Translations under genes and position numbers: made by a program
Part shown: positions 28,754 to 36,603 of the stretch, piece by piece
Position numbering within the stretch: the stretch's first letter is position 1
Layout: the number at the start of each line of letters is the position of its first letter
Source: Tenacibaculum sp. L6
Lineage (GTDB): Bacteria > Bacteroidota > Bacteroidia > Flavobacteriales > Flavobacteriaceae
Direction of reading: 5' to 3'
Length of the DNA: 64,000 nucleotides
NCBI RefSeq assembly: GCF_028823685.1
Contig: NZ_JAPEHZ010000006.1
Location: 1-64,000 of the forward strand
Notes under the pieces: generated by a model
What the model was told of the DNA's origin: nothing
The model's database searches: none
Seen by the model: only the letters and a program-made list of their open reading frames with translations

Positions 28754-29656
28754 TTATTGATTGATTAATTGTTTAATTCCTTTAGCTAATTCATCCGCTG
28801 CAGCTGGATGTTTTCTAAACCATAGTTCTGGCTCTATCAACTCTAATTCAGCAATAGCTAATTTATCATTATTATCAGTAAAAATATCCACTCTAGCGTA
28901 AATAGGTAGTTCTATACAAGCTTTTACAGCATTCTCAGCAAAGTCAATTTCTTTTTGAGTAGGAGAGTAGCTATGTACAGATCCTCCAAAATCATCTTGC
29001 ACTCTAAAGTCTCCTGATTTGGCTATTTTCAATACTGCATGTGTAAACTTACCATTCATTACCATTAATGATATTTCACCTTTTTTTACAATATTATACT
29101 GAAAAGGTTGAAGAATCATTGCTTCTTCGGTTATCAATTCAGAAAAAACAGTTTCAAAGGTTTTTATGTTTTCTGGATTGATTTTATAGGTATGTCTTGC
29201 TGCTCCTGAAATACACGGTTTTAAAACAAACTCTTTTAAACCAAACTGAATTGAAAGTTCTTTAAGGGTTTTAGTAGTGCCTTGTTCTATAAAATATGAT
29301 TCACAAATATGCACTCCGTTTTGTTGTAAATCTTGTAAGTAATGCTTGTCAATATTCCAACGAATAATTTTTTCTGAATTTAATAGAATAGTTTGCTGAC
29401 TTACATTGTTTAACCATTCAGAAAATTCAGAAAATCGATCAAAATAATCCCATGTTGTTCTAAATAAAATATAACGAGTTGTTGACCAATCAAAACTAGC
29501 ATCATCCCAAGAAAGACGATCAACTTTTAATCCTTGGTTTTCAAGAGCTATTTTTACATAATTATCTTCATCAAGTACGTTTTTAGTGTATGCGTTAATT
29601 TCAATTGGATTTACATACCTTTTATCTGTTAAGATAATTACATCGTATTTTTTCAT
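28754..29656 (-). CDS. ATP-grasp (RimK/glutathione synthetase-like) ligase
   Basis: 300 residues. The ATP-grasp core runs from about residue 100, with EFVLKPCISGAARHTYKI as the nucleotide-binding strand, MILQPFQYNIVKKGEISLMVMNGKFTHAVLK as the central sheet, and the metal-binding AELELIEPELWFRKHPAAADELAKGI near the end. Such enzymes join an acid to an amine or thiol through an acyl phosphate. The substrate is not evident. It resembles the glutathione-synthetase-like group found widely in Bacteroidota. Confidence 0.88.
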   Translation of the reverse strand: MKKYDVIILTDKRYVNPIEINAYTKNVLDEDNYVKIALENQGLKVDRLSWDDASFDWSTTRYILFRTTWDYFDRFSEFSEWLNNVSQQTILLNSEKIIRWNIDKHYLQDLQQNGVHICESYFIEQGTTKTLKELSIQFGLKEFVLKPCISGAARHTYKINPENIKTFETVFSELITEEAMILQPFQYNIVKKGEISLMVMNGKFTHAVLKIAKSGDFRVQDDFGGSVHSYSPTQKEIDFAENAVKACIELPIYARVDIFTDNNDKLAIAELELIEPELWFRKHPAAADELAKGIKQLINQ

Positions 29657-29770
29657 AAGCTATTTTACTTTTTGTTAAATAAGTCTTTACTGATATAAAA
29701 ATATTAGTTATAATTTAGCATGTTTTTTTTTTAAAAAAAAACACTAAAAAAACAAAACTAGTATTAAATA

Positions 29771-29796
29771 AAAAAAGTGCTTAAGTAAGCACTTTT
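29771..29796 (-). terminator. terminator of the Roadblock operon
   Basis: The perfect 11-bp stem AAAAGTGCTTA / TAAGCACTTTT with a two-base loop overlaps the stop codon of the 63-residue gene and has a T run on the minus strand. Confidence 0.8.
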
Positions 29797-29986
29797 AAAA
29801 TATATCTTTTACTAAATCATTCATACTATCGTATTCTTTAAATAAAAAGCCAAAGAAATCTTTACTCTTTTTTTCTTGAAACTCTATTATTCCTTCAGAA
29901 AACCTATACTCTCTAAAAGTTCTTAACTTGTTGTTTAGGTCTTTCTTTAAACCTTTTTTTATAGGTAAATGATCTGTGTTTTTCAC
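29795..29986 (-). CDS. 63-residue basic protein, third gene of the Roadblock operon
   Basis: It begins with GTG 10 bp after the stop of the 124-residue Roadblock-like protein, and its stop is inside a strong terminator, so it is very likely the last gene of that unit. The N-terminal half is rich in lysine and arginine (KKGLKKDLNNKLRTFREYR), and the C-terminal half is aromatic/acidic (KDFFGFLFKEYDSMNDLVKDIF). No family is recognised. It could be an adaptor or effector peptide of the Roadblock pair, by context only. Confidence 0.65.
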   Translation of the reverse strand: MKNTDHLPIKKGLKKDLNNKLRTFREYRFSEGIIEFQEKKSKDFFGFLFKEYDSMNDLVKDIF

Positions 29987-29996
29987 AAGTATATTT

Positions 29997-30371
29997 TTAT
30001 AACGCGTTATTTAAATCTACTTTATATTTGTTTAATAAAGCTTTAGTAATACCTAAGTTAGCTTCTTTAGAATCTACAGCCAAATAAATAAAGTAAGTAC
30101 CACTTGGTGCAATGTTTATAACGTGTACTTGACTAGATAATGTAATTGTAATATCTTGTATCTCTTCGTTTAATTTTAAAGCTTCAATTGCTTTTAATTT
30201 AGCTTTTACTACCCCTAAATTGTATGCAGAAGCAAGAGTAGGATCGAAATTTGGATCTACTGTAAAATATTCGTAAGCTTCCCCTGAACTTACATCTGTA
30301 ACAGACACTGCAATAAACCCTGGAACATTAGTTCTTAAGTTTTCGATAAAATCATTTAAAATTTCCTTCAT
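29997..30371 (-). CDS. Roadblock/LC7-like protein, 124 residues
   Basis: The pattern is that of a Roadblock/LC7 domain: helix (EILNDFIENLRTNVPG), strand (FIAVSVTDVSSGEAY), long helix (LASAYNLGVVKAKLKAIEAL), strands (DITITLSSQVHVINI, YFIYLAVDS) and final helix (ANLGITKALLNKY). The fold is known from MglB and dynein light chains, where homodimers or heterodimers regulate Ras-like GTPases. It is second in a three-gene unit with another Roadblock-like protein. No GTPase gene is near. The assignment is by pattern, not search. Confidence 0.75.
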   Translation of the reverse strand: MKEILNDFIENLRTNVPGFIAVSVTDVSSGEAYEYFTVDPNFDPTLASAYNLGVVKAKLKAIEALKLNEEIQDITITLSSQVHVINIAPSGTYFIYLAVDSKEANLGITKALLNKYKVDLNNAL

Positions 30372-30413
30372 TTTGATATTTTATTAATTGTATTAATAGA
30401 TTTCTATATAAAA

Positions 30414-30740
30414 TTATAGAGCTAGTTTTTTTAAGGTAAGTTTCATTATAGCTACCTTAGATACATCATCGGCTATTAAACAAACAATATGTTTGTTGCT
30501 ATATTTATTTATTACCACTAGTTCATTATTTGAGTTTAATACTAGCTGATTAAGCTTATCAGATTCTAAAACGTCTTCGAAAAATTCATGAGACATTGTA
30601 ACCATAACAGCTAACATTGCTGCTACATTATGTTCGTTAGTAACATTGTAAGAATCTATAATATGACCTTCAGAATCGAATACAAGTCCTTTGTTAGCCT
30701 CCGATTCTTCGACTAACATTTGTAAGTTTATTTCCTCCAT
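30414..30740 (-). CDS. Roadblock/LC7-like protein, 108 residues
   Basis: First gene of the unit. From the ATG at 30740 (preferred over a TTG at 30749) it has 108 residues. GLVFDSEGHIIDSYN matches the first Roadblock strand-turn-strand, AAMLAVMVTMSHEFFEDV the long helix, LNQLVLNSNNELVVINKY and HIVCLIADD the following strands, and KVAIMKLTLKKL the last helix. It is shorter than, and clearly different from, its neighbour, so a heterodimer is plausible. A spaced AGGAAAT purine run precedes the start. Confidence 0.78.
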   Translation of the reverse strand: MEEINLQMLVEESEANKGLVFDSEGHIIDSYNVTNEHNVAAMLAVMVTMSHEFFEDVLESDKLNQLVLNSNNELVVINKYSNKHIVCLIADDVSKVAIMKLTLKKLAL

Positions 30741-30960
30741 TATGTTCAACTGTAAGCATTAACATGTAGTTAACACTAAATTTTGTTTCCTATACACGAT
30801 TTAGACACACCTATTTTAAAAAGAGTCACAAAAATAAGTCTTTATTTTAGTGAATTAATTTTGTTTAATCTTTTTTTGTGATATCTTTATCAGAAAACTT
30901 TATTAAAAGAGGGCAAAAAAAAGACTAGATTTTATAAGGTCTAGTCTTTTTTTGTGATTA
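30741..30960. other. 220-bp upstream region of the Roadblock operon
   Basis: AT-rich DNA with no open frame of note. It contains the terminator at 30915-30953 and must hold the promoter of the minus-strand Roadblock genes, though no exact TAnnTTTG is seen on the minus strand. Confidence 0.5.
30915..30953. terminator. bidirectional terminator hairpin
   Basis: The 14-bp stem AAAAAAAGACTAGA / TCTAGTCTTTTTTT has a 10-base loop and T runs on both strands. It lies 7 bp after the stop of the minus-strand gene remnant at 30961. It cannot serve any complete gene in the area, as the Roadblock genes start to its left and the PAS gene to its right. Confidence 0.75.
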
Positions 30961-31105
30961 TCAATCACTTTGTGGTTTTAATTTGTTTTTAAATTTTACT
31001 AAGTCAAGAATATTTTCAAATCTTGGCTCAAAAAAGAAATCATAAACAGCTTCTTTTAAATCGCTTACACTGTTTATAGATTTTAAGGTTTCATTTTCAT
31101 TAACA
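30961..31105 (-). pseudogene. 3' remnant of an unidentified minus-strand gene
   Basis: On the minus strand an open frame without any ATG, GTG or TTG reads towards a TGA at 30961-30963. Its last 45 residues look coding: NETLKSINSVSDLKEAV, then YDFFFEPRFENILDLVKF and a basic tail, directly followed by a terminator hairpin. Upstream the frame runs into the antisense of the truncated PAS gene. I infer a gene that lost its 5' part in a deletion; the product is unknown. Confidence 0.4.
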
Positions 31106-31106
31106 A

Positions 31107-31529
31107 TTGAACTATTTAATGTGGGACCGAATTCAAAAGAAACAAAACATAATTGCTTTCGTTAAAAACATGGCTAAAACAGGTAGATATTACTGGGTAA
31201 TGACTGATTTTGTTGTAAAAGAAAATGAAAAAGGACAAGTTACAAACTACAAAGCATTACGTAAACCAGCACCTAGAAAAGCTATACAAGAAGTCATTCC
31301 TTTGTATAAGAGATTAAGAGAAATTGAAAATCTTAATGGAATTGAAGCTTCAGAAAAATTCTTGAAAGGTTTTTTAGATTCTAAAAACACTGATTACGAT
31401 ACTTATGTAGAAAGATTGATTACTGATAATTTAGGTAGTCTTTCAGAAAGTAGTACTCCTCAGAAAGTCGGAAGAACTACTGAAAAGAAAAAAGGATCTT
31501 TCTTTAAAAGATTCTTTGGAATAGAATAA
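31107..31529 (+). pseudogene. PAS-domain protein lacking its N-terminal half
   Basis: The product begins (ATG at 31119, or TTG at 31107) directly with MWDRIQKKQNIIAFVKNMAK, which corresponds to the middle of a PAS domain. The GRYYWVMTDFVV and NYKALRKPAPRKAI segments are the last strands of the fold. The first PAS half (strands A-B, helices C-E, with the usual sensor pocket) is missing, and an in-frame stop lies immediately upstream. The basic tail ends FFKRFFGIE. Aer-like single PAS proteins of this type normally start about 60 residues earlier. Confidence 0.7.
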
Positions 31530-31566
31530 TACTTAATATCAATATTCCCCTGTAAAGGTTTTATGT

Positions 31567-32430
31567 TTAATAAGTTGCTTTAATCATCCGATTGTTACCA
31601 AACAAATCTTTTCGAAGTTCAACTTTAGTAAAACCTTTACGTTTCAGCATTTCAACGGTTTCATTTCCTAAATATTGATTGATTTCAAAAAAAAGTAATC
31701 CTTTTTTAGTTAACGACTTAATGGCTAAATCGGCTATTTTTTTATAAAAGACTAGCGGATTATCATCATCAACAAATAACGCTAAATGTGGTTCGTTTTC
31801 TAAAACATTGTTTTTGATTTCTACTTTTTCTAATTCACGCACATAAGGTGGATTAGATACTATCACATCGTATTGTCTAGATAAATTCTCAGTTTGTAAT
31901 ATATCTTGAAGCATAAAAGTAATTTCAGCTTTGTTTAACGAAGCATTCTCCTTAGCTACTTTTAAAGTTTCTTCAGAAACATCAATCGCACTTACGTTAG
32001 CACTTGGTAAATTCTTTTTTAAGCTGATAGGAATACAGCCTGTACCTGTTCCTATATCTAAAATAGATAATTGCTGTTTGTTATTTTCTAAACCTAATTC
32101 TTTTACCTCATTAAGAATCCATTCAACCAATTCTTCGGTTTCTGGTCTCGGAATTAGTGTGTTTTCATTTACCTTAAAAGGACATCCGTAAAACTCTGTT
32201 TTTCCTAATATGTACTGAATAGGCTCTTCTTTTTGTAATCTAGCAAGAGCTGTATCTAAAAGATCATACTTTTTTGAAGGGATTTCTAAAGTTGGTTGTA
32301 AAGTAAAGTCTATTCGTTGTAATCCTAAATATTCTTCTATCAACAAAAAAAAGAAAGTATCTATTTCTGTTTTAGGAAATATACTTTCTAATTGTTCCGT
32401 AAAATAAACTCTAAAGTGTTTTAAATTCAT
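31567..32430 (-). CDS. prmC: peptide chain release factor N5-glutamine methyltransferase
   Basis: PrmC methylates the glutamine of the GGQ motif in release factors. It has 287 residues with the helical N-terminal domain, SAM motif LDIGTGTGCIPISL and the NPPYVRE substrate motif. The RPETEELVEWIL segment is typical of the family. It lies 29 bp downstream of a GNAT gene in the same direction. Confidence 0.95.
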   Translation of the reverse strand: MNLKHFRVYFTEQLESIFPKTEIDTFFFLLIEEYLGLQRIDFTLQPTLEIPSKKYDLLDTALARLQKEEPIQYILGKTEFYGCPFKVNENTLIPRPETEELVEWILNEVKELGLENNKQQLSILDIGTGTGCIPISLKKNLPSANVSAIDVSEETLKVAKENASLNKAEITFMLQDILQTENLSRQYDVIVSNPPYVRELEKVEIKNNVLENEPHLALFVDDDNPLVFYKKIADLAIKSLTKKGLLFFEINQYLGNETVEMLKRKGFTKVELRKDLFGNNRMIKATY

Positions 32431-32459
32431 TAAAATTTCGTTTCTAAAAACTATCTAAA

Positions 32460-32951
32460 CTATAAATCTTTTAGCATCCAAACATTACACGAATAATGAC
32501 CTGTGTTTCCCATGGGTTTATCAAGATTTATGAATCCGTTTTTCGTGTATAAAGCTCTCGCAGCTTCCATGTATGGCATGGTTTCTAAATAACATTGCTC
32601 ATAACCTTGTTTTTTCGCCTTATCCAAGCAATAATCAATTAATTTACTTCCTAAACCTTTTCCTCTAGCTATAGGCAAGAAGTACATTTTTTGGAATTCA
32701 CATACATTACCTTCAAAATTGTCTAAAGGAGCAAAACCAGCACCGCCAACAACTTTTCCTTGATGCTCTATTACAAAATAACCAGCCTTATCTTTTTGGT
32801 AAGTTTCGTACATCTCATCGGTAGCTTTATCTTCATAGGCAGTTCCTACCTTAGGGACTCCAAATTCGATTAATACACCGCGTATAACTGCTGCTAATTC
32901 CGCATTATCTTGCGGTTTTACTTCTCTAATAATAAAATCAGAAGGTATCAT
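32460..32951 (-). CDS. GNAT-family N-acetyltransferase
   Basis: A 163-residue single GNAT domain. The acetyl-CoA-binding motif A is FLPIARGKGLGSKLIDYCLDKAK (Q/RxxGxG/A), followed by QCYLETMPYMEAARALYTKNGF. The acceptor is unknown. It is similar to the small acetyltransferases often found before prmC in flavobacteria. It is divergent from the lipoprotein gene at 33004 across a 52-bp spacer that contains a dyad. Confidence 0.9.
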   Translation of the reverse strand: MIPSDFIIREVKPQDNAELAAVIRGVLIEFGVPKVGTAYEDKATDEMYETYQKDKAGYFVIEHQGKVVGGAGFAPLDNFEGNVCEFQKMYFLPIARGKGLGSKLIDYCLDKAKKQGYEQCYLETMPYMEAARALYTKNGFINLDKPMGNTGHYSCNVWMLKDL

Positions 32952-32961
32952 AAGAATATAG

Positions 32962-32969
32962 TACTTTTG
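32962..32969 (+). promoter_or_regulatory. -7 promoter element inside a dyad between the GNAT and lipoprotein genes
   Basis: TACTTTTG matches TAnnTTTG. It forms the left half of an imperfect inverted repeat GTACTTTTGC-TAAA-GCAAAGTAC (32961-32983), 34 bp before the lipoprotein ATG. Confidence 0.5.
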
Positions 32970-33003
32970 CTAAAGCAAAGTACCCAAAAAAACACGAGTT
33001 TTC

Positions 33004-33468
33004 ATGAAGAAAATCATATATTTTTTACCTTTTTTACTTTTTGTAGTAAGTTGTTCTGTAAAACAAAAACCTATCTTCTTAAAAGTTGATGATATAAAAC
33101 TACTATCGGCTACTACCGATACTATTAGACTAGGGGCTAATGCATATTTTAAAAACCCTAATGATATTGGTGGTAAAATTGCTACTGATGAAATTAAAGT
33201 TTTAGTAAATCAGGTTCAAGTTGCTCAGGTATCTTCAGAAGAATTTAAAGTTCCTGCTCGTAAAGAATTTTCTATTCCTCTGAAAGTAGTGATTCCTGCC
33301 AAAAAAGTTTTTGAGAATAATAAAAACGGAGTTTTAGGTGGACTCCTTTCTTCTTTAATAAACCAAAGGATAAAAGTTCAATTTAAAGGAGACTTAAAAT
33401 ATAAAGTGTTAGGTTTTTCGCATGTGTACCCAATTGATCAAATTGAAGATGTAAAGATAAAATTATAA
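33004..33468 (+). CDS. LEA14-like lipoprotein (WHy-type domain)
   Basis: 154 residues with a lipobox (FVVSC, C17) and a LEA type 2/WHy-like beta domain. The domain shows the DTIRLGANAYFKNPNDIGGKI segment and a second half with KEFSIPLKVVIPAKKVF. Such lipoproteins are common in Bacteroidota and of unknown function, probably anchored to the periplasmic face of a membrane. It starts the plus-strand run that continues through ribD and ends with yigZ. Confidence 0.87.
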   Translation: MKKIIYFLPFLLFVVSCSVKQKPIFLKVDDIKLLSATTDTIRLGANAYFKNPNDIGGKIATDEIKVLVNQVQVAQVSSEEFKVPARKEFSIPLKVVIPAKKVFENNKNGVLGGLLSSLINQRIKVQFKGDLKYKVLGFSHVYPIDQIEDVKIKL

Positions 33469-33472
33469 CAAT

Positions 33473-34522
33473 TTGAACCACGAAAAATATATACAACGTT
33501 GCTTACAATTAGCTAAAAACGGTATTGGCACAACACGTCCCAATCCATCTGTTGGCGCTGTAATTGTTCATAAGAATAAAATTATAGGAGAAGGATTTAC
33601 CTCGCCTTATGGCGGTCCTCACGCAGAAGTCAACGCTATTAATTCTGTACAAAATCAAGAATTATTAAAAGAAGCTACTATTTATGTTACACTAGAACCT
33701 TGCTCTCATCACGGAAAAACACCACCATGTGCTGATTTGATCATAGAAAAAGGAATTCCTAATATAGTAATCGGTAGTGTAGACACCAATAGTTTAGTAG
33801 CAGGAAAAGGTATTGAACGGTTAAAAAAAGCAGGAAGAAATGTAATAGTTGGTGTTTGTGTAAAAACTTGTAAAGAACATCACAAACGTTTTTTTACGGT
33901 TCAAAACAAAAAGCGTCCGTATATTATCTTAAAATGGGCAGAAACCAAAGATGGATTTATAGCTCCTTTAACTAAAGGTGAGCAAAAACCTGTGTGGATT
34001 TCAAACGCTTATTCTCAACAGTTAGTTCATAAATGGCGAAGTGAAGAGCATGCCATTTTAGTAGGAACCAATACGGTGATTGCTGATAATCCATCATTAA
34101 CTGTTCGTAGTTGGTCAGGAAATAACCCTGTGAGAATTGTTATTAATAAAAACCTGCGAATTCCGTCAGAAGCAACTGTTTTAAATGGAGATGTTAAAAC
34201 GATTGTTCTTGTTGATAGAAAAGAGAGAAGAGAAACGAGAAAAGAGAAACAAGAAGTTTTTTACGAAGAAATCGATTTTTCTTCTCGAGTAGCAGAGGAA
34301 ATTTGCGATGTATTGCATAAACATCAAATACAATCGGTAATTATTGAAGGAGGTGCGCAAACCTTGCAAACATTTATCGAAGCTAATTTATGGGATGAAG
34401 CCAGAGTTTTCATAGGCGATGTAAACTTTGGAGCAGGAGTGAAGCATCCTGTTTTCAATGCGAAACTTTCTTCCGAAGAAAAAATAACTAACGACCTATT
34501 AAGAATATATAAGAATGATTAA
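33473..34522 (+). CDS. ribD: bifunctional pyrimidine deaminase/reductase for riboflavin synthesis
   Basis: RibD deaminates and reduces the GTP-derived pyrimidine in riboflavin synthesis. 349 residues: the deaminase domain has zinc ligands H50 (HAEVNAI) and C77, C86 (CSHHGKTPPC); the reductase domain has ILKWAETKDGFIA and VIIEGGAQTLQTFIE. The start is TTG at 33473, placed by homology of NHEKYIQRCLQLAKNG; no ATG fits. It follows the lipoprotein by 4 bp and overlaps the HAD gene by 8 bp. Confidence 0.95.
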   Translation: MNHEKYIQRCLQLAKNGIGTTRPNPSVGAVIVHKNKIIGEGFTSPYGGPHAEVNAINSVQNQELLKEATIYVTLEPCSHHGKTPPCADLIIEKGIPNIVIGSVDTNSLVAGKGIERLKKAGRNVIVGVCVKTCKEHHKRFFTVQNKKRPYIILKWAETKDGFIAPLTKGEQKPVWISNAYSQQLVHKWRSEEHAILVGTNTVIADNPSLTVRSWSGNNPVRIVINKNLRIPSEATVLNGDVKTIVLVDRKERRETRKEKQEVFYEEIDFSSRVAEEICDVLHKHQIQSVIIEGGAQTLQTFIEANLWDEARVFIGDVNFGAGVKHPVFNAKLSSEEKITNDLLRIYKND

Positions 34523-35126
34523 AAACATCATTTTTGATTTTGGTGATGTATTCATCAATTTAGATAAAGAAGCAACATACAAAGAACTGGCAAAGCTTGG
34601 GGTTACTGAGATTAGCGAAGAAATGATACAACAATATTATCAGTATGAAACGGGATTAATTTCTACGGATGATTTTATTCATTTTTTCTACAATAAATTC
34701 AATATTCCTAAAGAAAAATTAATCTATTCGTGGAATGCTATTTTGTTAGATTTTCCGAAGCATCGCTTAGATTTTTTGAAGAAACTTGCTGCAACGAATG
34801 ATTATCGATTGTTTTTGTTAAGTAACACGAACGATATGCATATTTCTTGGATTCAAAACGACTGGGGAGAAGAACTTTATAATGAATTTAAAAGTTATTT
34901 TGAACAGTTTTACTTATCGCACGAAATCAATCTAAGAAAACCAAATACTAACATTTTTGAGTTTGTTTTAAACGAAAATAATTTACAAGCTTCTGAAACT
35001 ATTTTTATAGACGATACCCAAGAAAACACCAATGCTGCACAAGAATTGGGTATTCATGTTTGGAATAATTGTCCGAAAACAGAAGATGTGGTGGATTTAC
35101 TAAAAAGAAAGGAGTTTATAGCGTGA
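34515..35126 (+). CDS. HAD-superfamily hydrolase
   Basis: 203 residues. Motif I is IIFDFGDVFINLD (DxGD rather than DxD), motif II LFLLSNTND and motif III/IV IFIDDTQENTNAAQ. It matches the beta-phosphoglucomutase/epoxide-hydrolase-N-like HAD group. It overlaps ribD by 8 bp, so a role in removing phosphate from a riboflavin intermediate is possible (the pathway needs such a step), but this is inference from position only. Confidence 0.88.
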   Translation: MIKNIIFDFGDVFINLDKEATYKELAKLGVTEISEEMIQQYYQYETGLISTDDFIHFFYNKFNIPKEKLIYSWNAILLDFPKHRLDFLKKLAATNDYRLFLLSNTNDMHISWIQNDWGEELYNEFKSYFEQFYLSHEINLRKPNTNIFEFVLNENNLQASETIFIDDTQENTNAAQELGIHVWNNCPKTEDVVDLLKRKEFIA

Positions 35127-35986
35127 TATTCTTAATTTTCAGTGTTTTTATAACAAGTTTACTCTTTGTAATCTTTAAATTGTTTGATGTTTACAAAGTA
35201 AATACATTTCAAGCCATTGTTTTAAACTATGCGGTAGCATTGTGTTTCGGATTTGTGCATTCAGAAATTTCACTTTCTGTAACTCAAATCCCGCAGCAAC
35301 CTTGGTTTTTAGGAGCTACCATCTTAGGTTTCTTATTTATTACCGTATTCCTTGTAATGGGAATCACTGCTCAAAAAAATGGACTTTCTGTTGCTTCTGT
35401 GGCTGGAAAAATGTCGGTCGTAATTCCTGTTGTTTTAGGAATTTTTCTCTACAATGAAAGTATTGGTTTTGTAAAAATCATCGGGATTATACTTGCGCTG
35501 GTAGCAGTGTATTTATCTTCAGCAAAAAGTGATACTTCTTCAGTAAAATTTAAAAACTTGTTATTTCCTTTATTACTTTTTTTAGGGTCAGGGAGTATTG
35601 ATACATTATTAAAGTATACTGAAACTACTTACGTACCTAAAGAAGCATTACCAATGTTCTTATCAACTATTTTTGGATGCGCTTTATTTTTTGGTTTTTT
35701 TATTTTAACAGCTCAGTTACTAAATAAAAAAGGAGTATTTGAATGGAAAACGTTCCTTGGAGGGATTGCTTTAGGAGTCCCCAACTATTATTCTATGGAA
35801 TTTTTATTAAAAGCATTACAAACAAAGGGGCTTGAAAGTTCTACAGTTTTTACCATAAATAATGTGTCTATAGTTATATTAACCACCGTGTTTGCTCTTA
35901 CATTTTTTAAAGAAAAATTGGTCAAAAAAAATTGGCTTGGTATTGGGCTTGCCATAATTAGTATTTTATTAGTAGTTTCGGCATAA
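35123..35986 (+). CDS. EamA/DMT-family transporter (GTG start)
   Basis: A membrane protein of about ten helices. I place the start at GTG 35123 within the GTGA that is also the stop of the HAD gene, with AAAGGAG 9 bp upstream; the longer frame to 35069 is not needed. Residues FITSLLFVIFKLFDVYKVNTFQAIVLNY begin the first EamA half, and YLSSAKSDTSSVKFKN marks the linker. The substrate is unknown. Its final base overlaps the first base of the next ATG. Confidence 0.88.
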   Translation: MIFLIFSVFITSLLFVIFKLFDVYKVNTFQAIVLNYAVALCFGFVHSEISLSVTQIPQQPWFLGATILGFLFITVFLVMGITAQKNGLSVASVAGKMSVVIPVVLGIFLYNESIGFVKIIGIILALVAVYLSSAKSDTSSVKFKNLLFPLLLFLGSGSIDTLLKYTETTYVPKEALPMFLSTIFGCALFFGFFILTAQLLNKKGVFEWKTFLGGIALGVPNYYSMEFLLKALQTKGLESSTVFTINNVSIVILTTVFALTFFKEKLVKKNWLGIGLAIISILLVVSA

Positions 35987-36603
35987 TGAATGAAGAAATA
36001 AAAGACACTTACAAAACAATTACCAAACCCTCTGAGGAAACCTTATTTAAAGACCGAAACAGTAAGTTTTTTGGGTATGCTTTTCCTGTTTTTACTGAGG
36101 AAGATATTAAAGAACGTTTAGAAGAACTCCGTAAACAACATCATACTGCACGTCATCATTGTTATGCGTGGCAATTGGGAACAGAAAAGATTCGTTTTCG
36201 TGCTAATGATGATGGGGAGCCGAGTAATTCAGCAGGGCAACCAATTTATGGACAAATACAATCTTTTGATGTAACCAATATTTTAATTGTTTCTGTACGT
36301 TATTTTGGAGGAACCAAACTTGGAGTAGGAGGATTAATTAACGCCTATCGAGCTTCAGCGCAATTAGCTTTAGAAGCCTCTGAAATTATTGAGAAAACCA
36401 TAGATATTCATTATAAGTTAAAGTTCGGGTACGATATGATGAATAAAGTACAACGTATTATCAAAGAACGAAACCTAGATATTATTAATCAAAAATTAGA
36501 ATTAGACTGCGAGTATACCATTTCAGTACGTAAAAAAGAAGCTGAAAGTATTTTTGAAGTTTTTGATAATCTGTTTAAGGTGGAGATTAAATTAGTAGAT
36601 TAA
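35986..36603 (+). CDS. YigZ/IMPACT (UPF0029) family protein
   Basis: 205 residues. The UPF0029 signature YFGGTKLGVGGLINAYRASAQLAL (about residues 105-128) is clear, preceded by HHTARHHCYAWQLG and the DDGEPSNSAGQPI motif. The C-terminal DUF1949-like part follows. The eukaryotic relative IMPACT regulates GCN2; the bacterial role is unknown. ATG overlaps the transporter stop (TAATG), so it is cotranscribed with ribD-HAD-DMT. Confidence 0.95.
   Translation: MNEEIKDTYKTITKPSEETLFKDRNSKFFGYAFPVFTEEDIKERLEELRKQHHTARHHCYAWQLGTEKIRFRANDDGEPSNSAGQPIYGQIQSFDVTNILIVSVRYFGGTKLGVGGLINAYRASAQLALEASEIIEKTIDIHYKLKFGYDMMNKVQRIIKERNLDIINQKLELDCEYTISVRKKEAESIFEVFDNLFKVEIKLVD

Follow-up and report, generated by a model that had tools for sequence, protein, structure and literature searches.

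A probable deletion scar joining the 3' remnants of two opposing genes in Tenacibaculum sp. L6

Introduction

Among flavin-binding sensors, the PAS domain of Escherichia coli Aer (8DIK) is the closest described counterpart of one of the two genes considered here, and an account of this domain names H53, R57, M69, W70, N85 and R115 among the residues that lie near or contact FAD (PMC9668731). In addition, a separate PAS protein, CetB, has been described from Campylobacter (PMC10746189). As far as that description goes, CetB offers a comparable stand-alone Aer-like PAS protein. The intact Tenacibaculum homologue is short (218 aa) and similar in sequence to the Aer domain, of which the L6 locus keeps the second half only, and FAD binding is a prediction for the Tenacibaculum protein.

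The neighbouring genes recall the MglB/Roadblock proteins, as structural models of two of their products, D1 and R1, match MglB. A search of this genome with a single model (PF00025) found no stand-alone small GTPase of the Ras-like kind, its matches being confined to frames of 400-529 aa. A sensor-type protein and Roadblock proteins within one locus are also what the conservons are portrayed to contain (PMC13343842), and in this respect the two arrangements agree.

A further comparison is provided by the deletion-derived pseudogene remnants of bacteria, with which the locus shares 3' fragments without starts, one junction that bears a short repeat, and intact homologues in relatives. From typical deletion pseudogenes it shows no difference in kind; here two opposing genes were struck together, and the segment has lost different parts in two related species. 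The scar constitutes routine gene decay, yet it is well bracketed, with one relative complete and two at different stages of loss.

The window analysed here is a stretch of 64,000 nucleotides of Tenacibaculum sp. L6 (contig NZ_JAPEHZ010000006.1), whose draft genome comprises 2,545,183 bases in 248 contigs and is 98.23% complete. The window's species was represented by this one strain. Homologues were surveyed in 166 Tenacibaculum genomes with PAS and S2 queries from T. larymnensis (locus L042), whose own genome (G116) belongs to the collection, and the T. lutimaris locus (L040) stems from genome G118. Genome G017 served as a guide to the ancestor and not as the ancestor, since both the window and G017 are mosaics. 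The features of the locus are collected in Table 1.

Table 1. Features of the locus, with positions counted from the first letter of the window
Feature	Position	Strand	Basis
S1, small gene after D1, 63 aa, GTG start	29795..29986	-	comparable frames also in G017 and T. lutimaris
D1, intact MglB-fold Roadblock protein (predicted), 124 aa	29997..30371	-	AlphaFold2 pLDDT 91.6; MglB/Roadblock matches, Z up to 17.1
R1, intact Roadblock-type protein (predicted), 108 aa, opening the surviving cassette	30414..30740	-	Robl_LC7 E 8.7e-4; AlphaFold2 model and MglB matches
Hairpin resembling a terminator, with T-run, downstream of S2	30916..30953	-	-13.7 kcal/mol, z -5.8 versus shuffles; self-complementary match
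S2 gene, 3' remnant, without start codon	30961..31119	-	last 52 codons and stop (30961-30963)
TTG extension 5' of the PAS remnant	31107..31118	+	12 bases; overlaps the antisense of the S2 remnant
Deletion junction, 3-4 nt shared sequence	31116..31119		blastn blocks versus G017 and side alignments
Aer-like PAS gene, 3' remnant	31119..31529	+	codons 90-218 of the T. larymnensis homologue
prmC, intact flanking gene	31567..32430	-	NCBIfam TIGR03534 257.7 bits, cut-off 199.1

Two opposing gene remnants

On the minus strand, the original prediction had placed a coding-like frame of 45-50 residues that ends at 30961 and is devoid of any start codon. Its coding-like character and the lack of a start were borne out, the list of ATG, GTG or TTG open reading frames of at least 40 aa holding none in this frame, and only the length needed correction, the remnant being slightly longer at 52 residues. 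Intact S2 proteins comprise 84 aa in T. larymnensis and 86 aa in G017, and the remnant shares 66-74% identity with five homologues of 83-86 aa and 42% with a sixth of 91 aa. Matches to S2 occur in 22 of the 166 genomes; the one in the window covers query residues 34-84, and those elsewhere with at least 54% identity begin at query residue 1 in every case (six of six, the query's own genome counted). The frame is therefore coding in origin, and a chance open frame on the minus strand was ruled out by the identity to S2 homologues.

The terminator hairpin expected directly 3' of this frame was recovered with its T-run. A consensus terminator scan, which accepts loops of up to 8, listed nothing for the region, probably on account of the loop of 10. 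In G017, part of the terminator-like hairpin region lies within a tandem duplication (period 115 bp; L005 3018-3244); the window carries a single copy.

The plus-strand frame, which spans 31107-31529, finds its closest matches in a collection of named genomes within Tenacibaculum. That it starts in the middle of a PAS domain, with an in-frame stop just ahead, proved accurate: from the ATG at 31119 it aligns with residues 90-218 of the 218-aa PAS protein, and the TAA at 31101-31103 stands one codon ahead of the TTG at 31107. In the survey of 166 genomes, the remnant is 82% identical to the T. larymnensis protein over query residues 88-218. Matches to this query at E <=1e-20 occur in 45 genomes, many of them representing paralogues that are 38-48% identical to it. 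With the identity threshold set at 55%, the 12 matches outside the window, one of which comes from the genome that supplied the query, are all full length, starting at query residue 1-18 and ending at 216-218, whereas the match in the window starts at 88. A natively short PAS gene was thereby ruled out, and no relative was encountered in which PAS begins at this residue and lacks a gene on the opposite strand.

The similarity of the intact homologue to the PAS domain of Aer (8dik_A; E 6.7e-24, residues 35-155) spans the domain, and its PAS_3 score of 37.5 bits exceeds the cut-off of 25.6. The remnant in the window reaches 12.5 bits, below the same cut-off; its PAS core is incomplete and half of the fold is gone. 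Counted on the Aer alignment, the first residue of the remnant corresponds to M69; W70, N85 and R115 also have their counterparts in it, and those of H53 and R57 lie in the part that was lost. Because part of the pocket is gone, the remnant would be unable to form the known FAD pocket and flavin binding has presumably been lost. If the remnant is translated at all, the ATG at 31119 is the likeliest start, giving a product of 136 aa; an annotation of the frame of 136 or 140 aa as a functioning sensor is best avoided.

The junction and the missing DNA

The junction, which had been placed near 31100-31119, falls within this interval: in a blastn comparison with G017, one homology block ends at window position 31118 and the next starts at 31116, leaving 3 bases (31116-31118) common to both, and a fourth shared base is permitted by the PAS-side alignment and the window sequence. 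The 3.9 kb alignment with G017 on the PAS/prmC flank shows 93.5% identity, and that of 292 bp on the S2 flank 84.9%. The coordinates put the missing length at about 943 bp when G017 is the reference and at about 1.6 kb when T. larymnensis is.

These observations are very probably accounted for by one deletion with its ends inside two opposing genes. In the numbering of T. larymnensis, such a deletion would have removed the 5' 89 codons of PAS and the 5' 34 codons of S2 with everything between them, including the promoter region and whatever remained at that time of R2 and D2, and both remnants would subsequently have become pseudogenes. The break itself may have formed by illegitimate recombination at the 3-4 nt repeat. 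The repeat fits this mechanism without proving it, because random break pairs can share as much: within the G017 segment, at least 3 nt were shared in 8.9% of trials and at least 4 nt in 3.6%.

No other copy of the G017 interval, of a full-length PAS gene or of D2 was found in this genome assembly. Beyond the locus itself, the genome searches for the lost DNA yielded only short matches, the hairpin, two PAS paralogues on contig C11 and D1. A rearrangement that moved the missing halves elsewhere was ruled out, there being no second copy in the genome. The genome is a draft in 248 contigs that was judged without reads, so the contig might in principle join non-adjacent pieces or have dropped a segment. 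Such an artefact is extremely improbable, given that collinearity with G017 holds on either side of the junction, that a genome 98% complete contains no second copy of the missing DNA, and that misjoins in assembly usually need an overlap longer than 3-4 nt.

The locus in related species

In T. larymnensis, the order of genes in the orientation of the window is D1, R1 (minus strand), S2, D2, R2 (minus strand), PAS (plus strand), prmC and an acetyltransferase gene (minus strand), and the complete PAS-R2-D2-S2 set was seen in this species alone. G017 carries a PAS gene of 214 aa and a whole S2 gene with a 75-aa frame between them. This frame is an in-frame R2::D2 fusion, consisting of the first R2 codons and the second half of D2 (L034 8696 onward), and it represents a separate deletion in the same segment.

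The comparison with undeleted relatives that the original prediction had proposed was thus carried out, and intact divergent genes were found in both G017 and T. larymnensis. The notion of two divergent genes that lost their 5' halves and the promoter between them holds insofar as both genes are whole and divergent in these relatives; it requires refinement insofar as they do not face each other directly, R2 and D2 lying between PAS and S2 in T. larymnensis and the R2::D2 fusion in G017, and more was lost than had been supposed. With this amendment, the interpretation of the locus as a deletion scar is supported by the sequence comparisons.

Other members of the genus have lost different parts of the same segment. 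In T. lutimaris, an intact PAS gene (220 aa) and R1-D1-S1 are present and nearly all of R2-D2-S2 is lost, the genome giving one D match and no S2 match; an R2-like start, recognised by eye in translation, is retained. In L043 and G123, PAS and R1-D1 are present and R2-D2-S2 is absent. In G055, G022 and G027, prmC is followed by R2-D2-S2 and R1-D1, and PAS is absent at this place. The segment thus decays elsewhere too, as G017 and T. lutimaris show.

Some of the loss in the window may accordingly date from earlier steps. In a stepwise variant that is compatible with the main explanation, R2-D2, with or without the start of S2, would have been lost first and a later, smaller deletion would have run into PAS. 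Its precedents are the separate R2::D2 fusion in G017 and the state of T. lutimaris, where PAS is intact without nearly all of R2-D2-S2; on the other hand, only a single junction is visible in the window, and S2 is whole in G017, so that there is no need to postulate an earlier break within S2. We regard this course of events as rather unlikely.

The T. lutimaris locus also contains, between R1 and PAS and beside the R2-like start, a diverged duplicate of the 3' end of prmC (L040 5212-5339; 71.5% over 130 columns), which hints at an old duplication of a prmC-R-D-S segment.

State of the remnants

Substitutions were polarised with T. lutimaris as the outgroup, or with T. larymnensis in the case of S2, where dS exceeded 1.8; YigZ, unpolarised for want of an outgroup, was left out of the count, and R1 gave zero changes on the window branch. 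Along this branch, both remnants together accumulated 5.7 synonymous and 10.3 non-synonymous changes versus 52 and 19 in seven neighbours (Fisher P 0.009 on rounded, small counts). Individually the tests are weak: against the neighbours, PAS gave P 0.073 and S2 P 0.043, and set against the corresponding stretches of the sister branch (15 and 6), the two remnants gave P 0.052. On the sister branch, the homologous stretches did not differ from their own neighbours (66.5 and 34.5; P 0.80). The pattern lends moderate support to loss of function, the numbers being small and the region a mosaic. Both remnants are probably pseudogenes by now; this falls short of proof because both frames remain open.

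The same data bear on the view that the short PAS frame is a working gene, read from the ATG at 31119 or the TTG at 31107, whose C-terminal fragment has taken on a new role. With 136 codons open and an omega of 0.22 versus G017 over 128 codons, where replacement falls below silent difference, the frame has features that a working gene would show. Nevertheless, we consider this very unlikely: the window branch of the PAS remnant carries 1 synonymous versus 3 non-synonymous changes, the short form is not shared by any of the 12 close matches elsewhere, the PAS fold has lost one half, and no sigma-70-like site was listed close upstream of the plus-strand frame, the sole plus-strand match starting at 31503. 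The scan as a whole gave two sites versus a shuffle mean of 4.0. Flavobacterial promoters follow the pattern TTG, 17-23 nt, TAnnTTTG; it had no match in window positions 30741-31130 or in the tested stretches of L040, L042 and L043, and in G017 only two overlapping matches, inside the S2 gene. The reading of both remnants as pseudogenes is preferred here.

Across 28754-36603 of the window, dS versus G017 varies over an approximately twentyfold range, from 0.05 in R1 to 1.07 in YigZ, with 0.99 for the S2 tail and 0.21 for PAS, a mosaic that may be taken as a sign of recombination between lineages.

The surviving Roadblock cassette and a possible PAS-Roadblock module

The cassette that survives beside the scar comprises R1, D1 and S1. 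Neither D1 nor R1 passed a Pfam or NCBIfam cut-off: D1 had no Pfam match, and R1 reached 19.4 bits for Robl_LC7 with hmmscan, under the Pfam cut-off of 23. R1 was missing from the Robl_LC7 matches in the genome even with E allowed to reach 1, though hmmscan of the protein had matched. The D1 model matched Roadblock3 (9jue_F) with Z 17.1 and MglB (6hjm_H) with Z 16.5; the model of R1 is less certain (pLDDT 77.4), shows the same order of elements and has its best matches in MglB, with a Foldseek E of 3.1e-7 to 1j3w. On these models, both proteins are predicted to have the Roadblock fold.

Co-occurrence was counted with D at E <=1e-3 and PAS at E <=1e-20, the latter including paralogues that are 38-48% identical. 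Of the 166 genomes, 34 contain D, 45 contain PAS and 32 contain both (Fisher 2e-21, a value that ignores shared ancestry and overstates the evidence). The genomes with D only are G012, which is 67% complete, and G016, where a weak match (E 7.1e-4) lies in an 870-aa frame. Moreover, D is present in all 22 genomes that bear S2.

A PAS-Roadblock module is a reasonable lead on these grounds and nothing beyond that; within the literature searched, no paper joined Roadblock proteins, a PAS domain and flavobacteria. These bacteria glide and do not swim. Rather speculatively, the lost genes could have belonged to an uncharacterised redox-signalling module of gliding Bacteroidota, made up of a stand-alone Aer-like PAS protein, MglB-like R and D proteins and the small S2, without a dedicated MglA GTPase. 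If this were true, the scar would be a natural partial knock-out of the module. The co-occurrence of PAS and MglB-like Roadblock genes across Tenacibaculum offers a testable lead on redox signalling in gliding, non-swimming bacteria.

The two PAS paralogues of the window's genome lie in tandem at G000:C11 28998-30518 (L038) and are 40-41% identical to the T. larymnensis PAS protein; they might stand in for the lost PAS gene.
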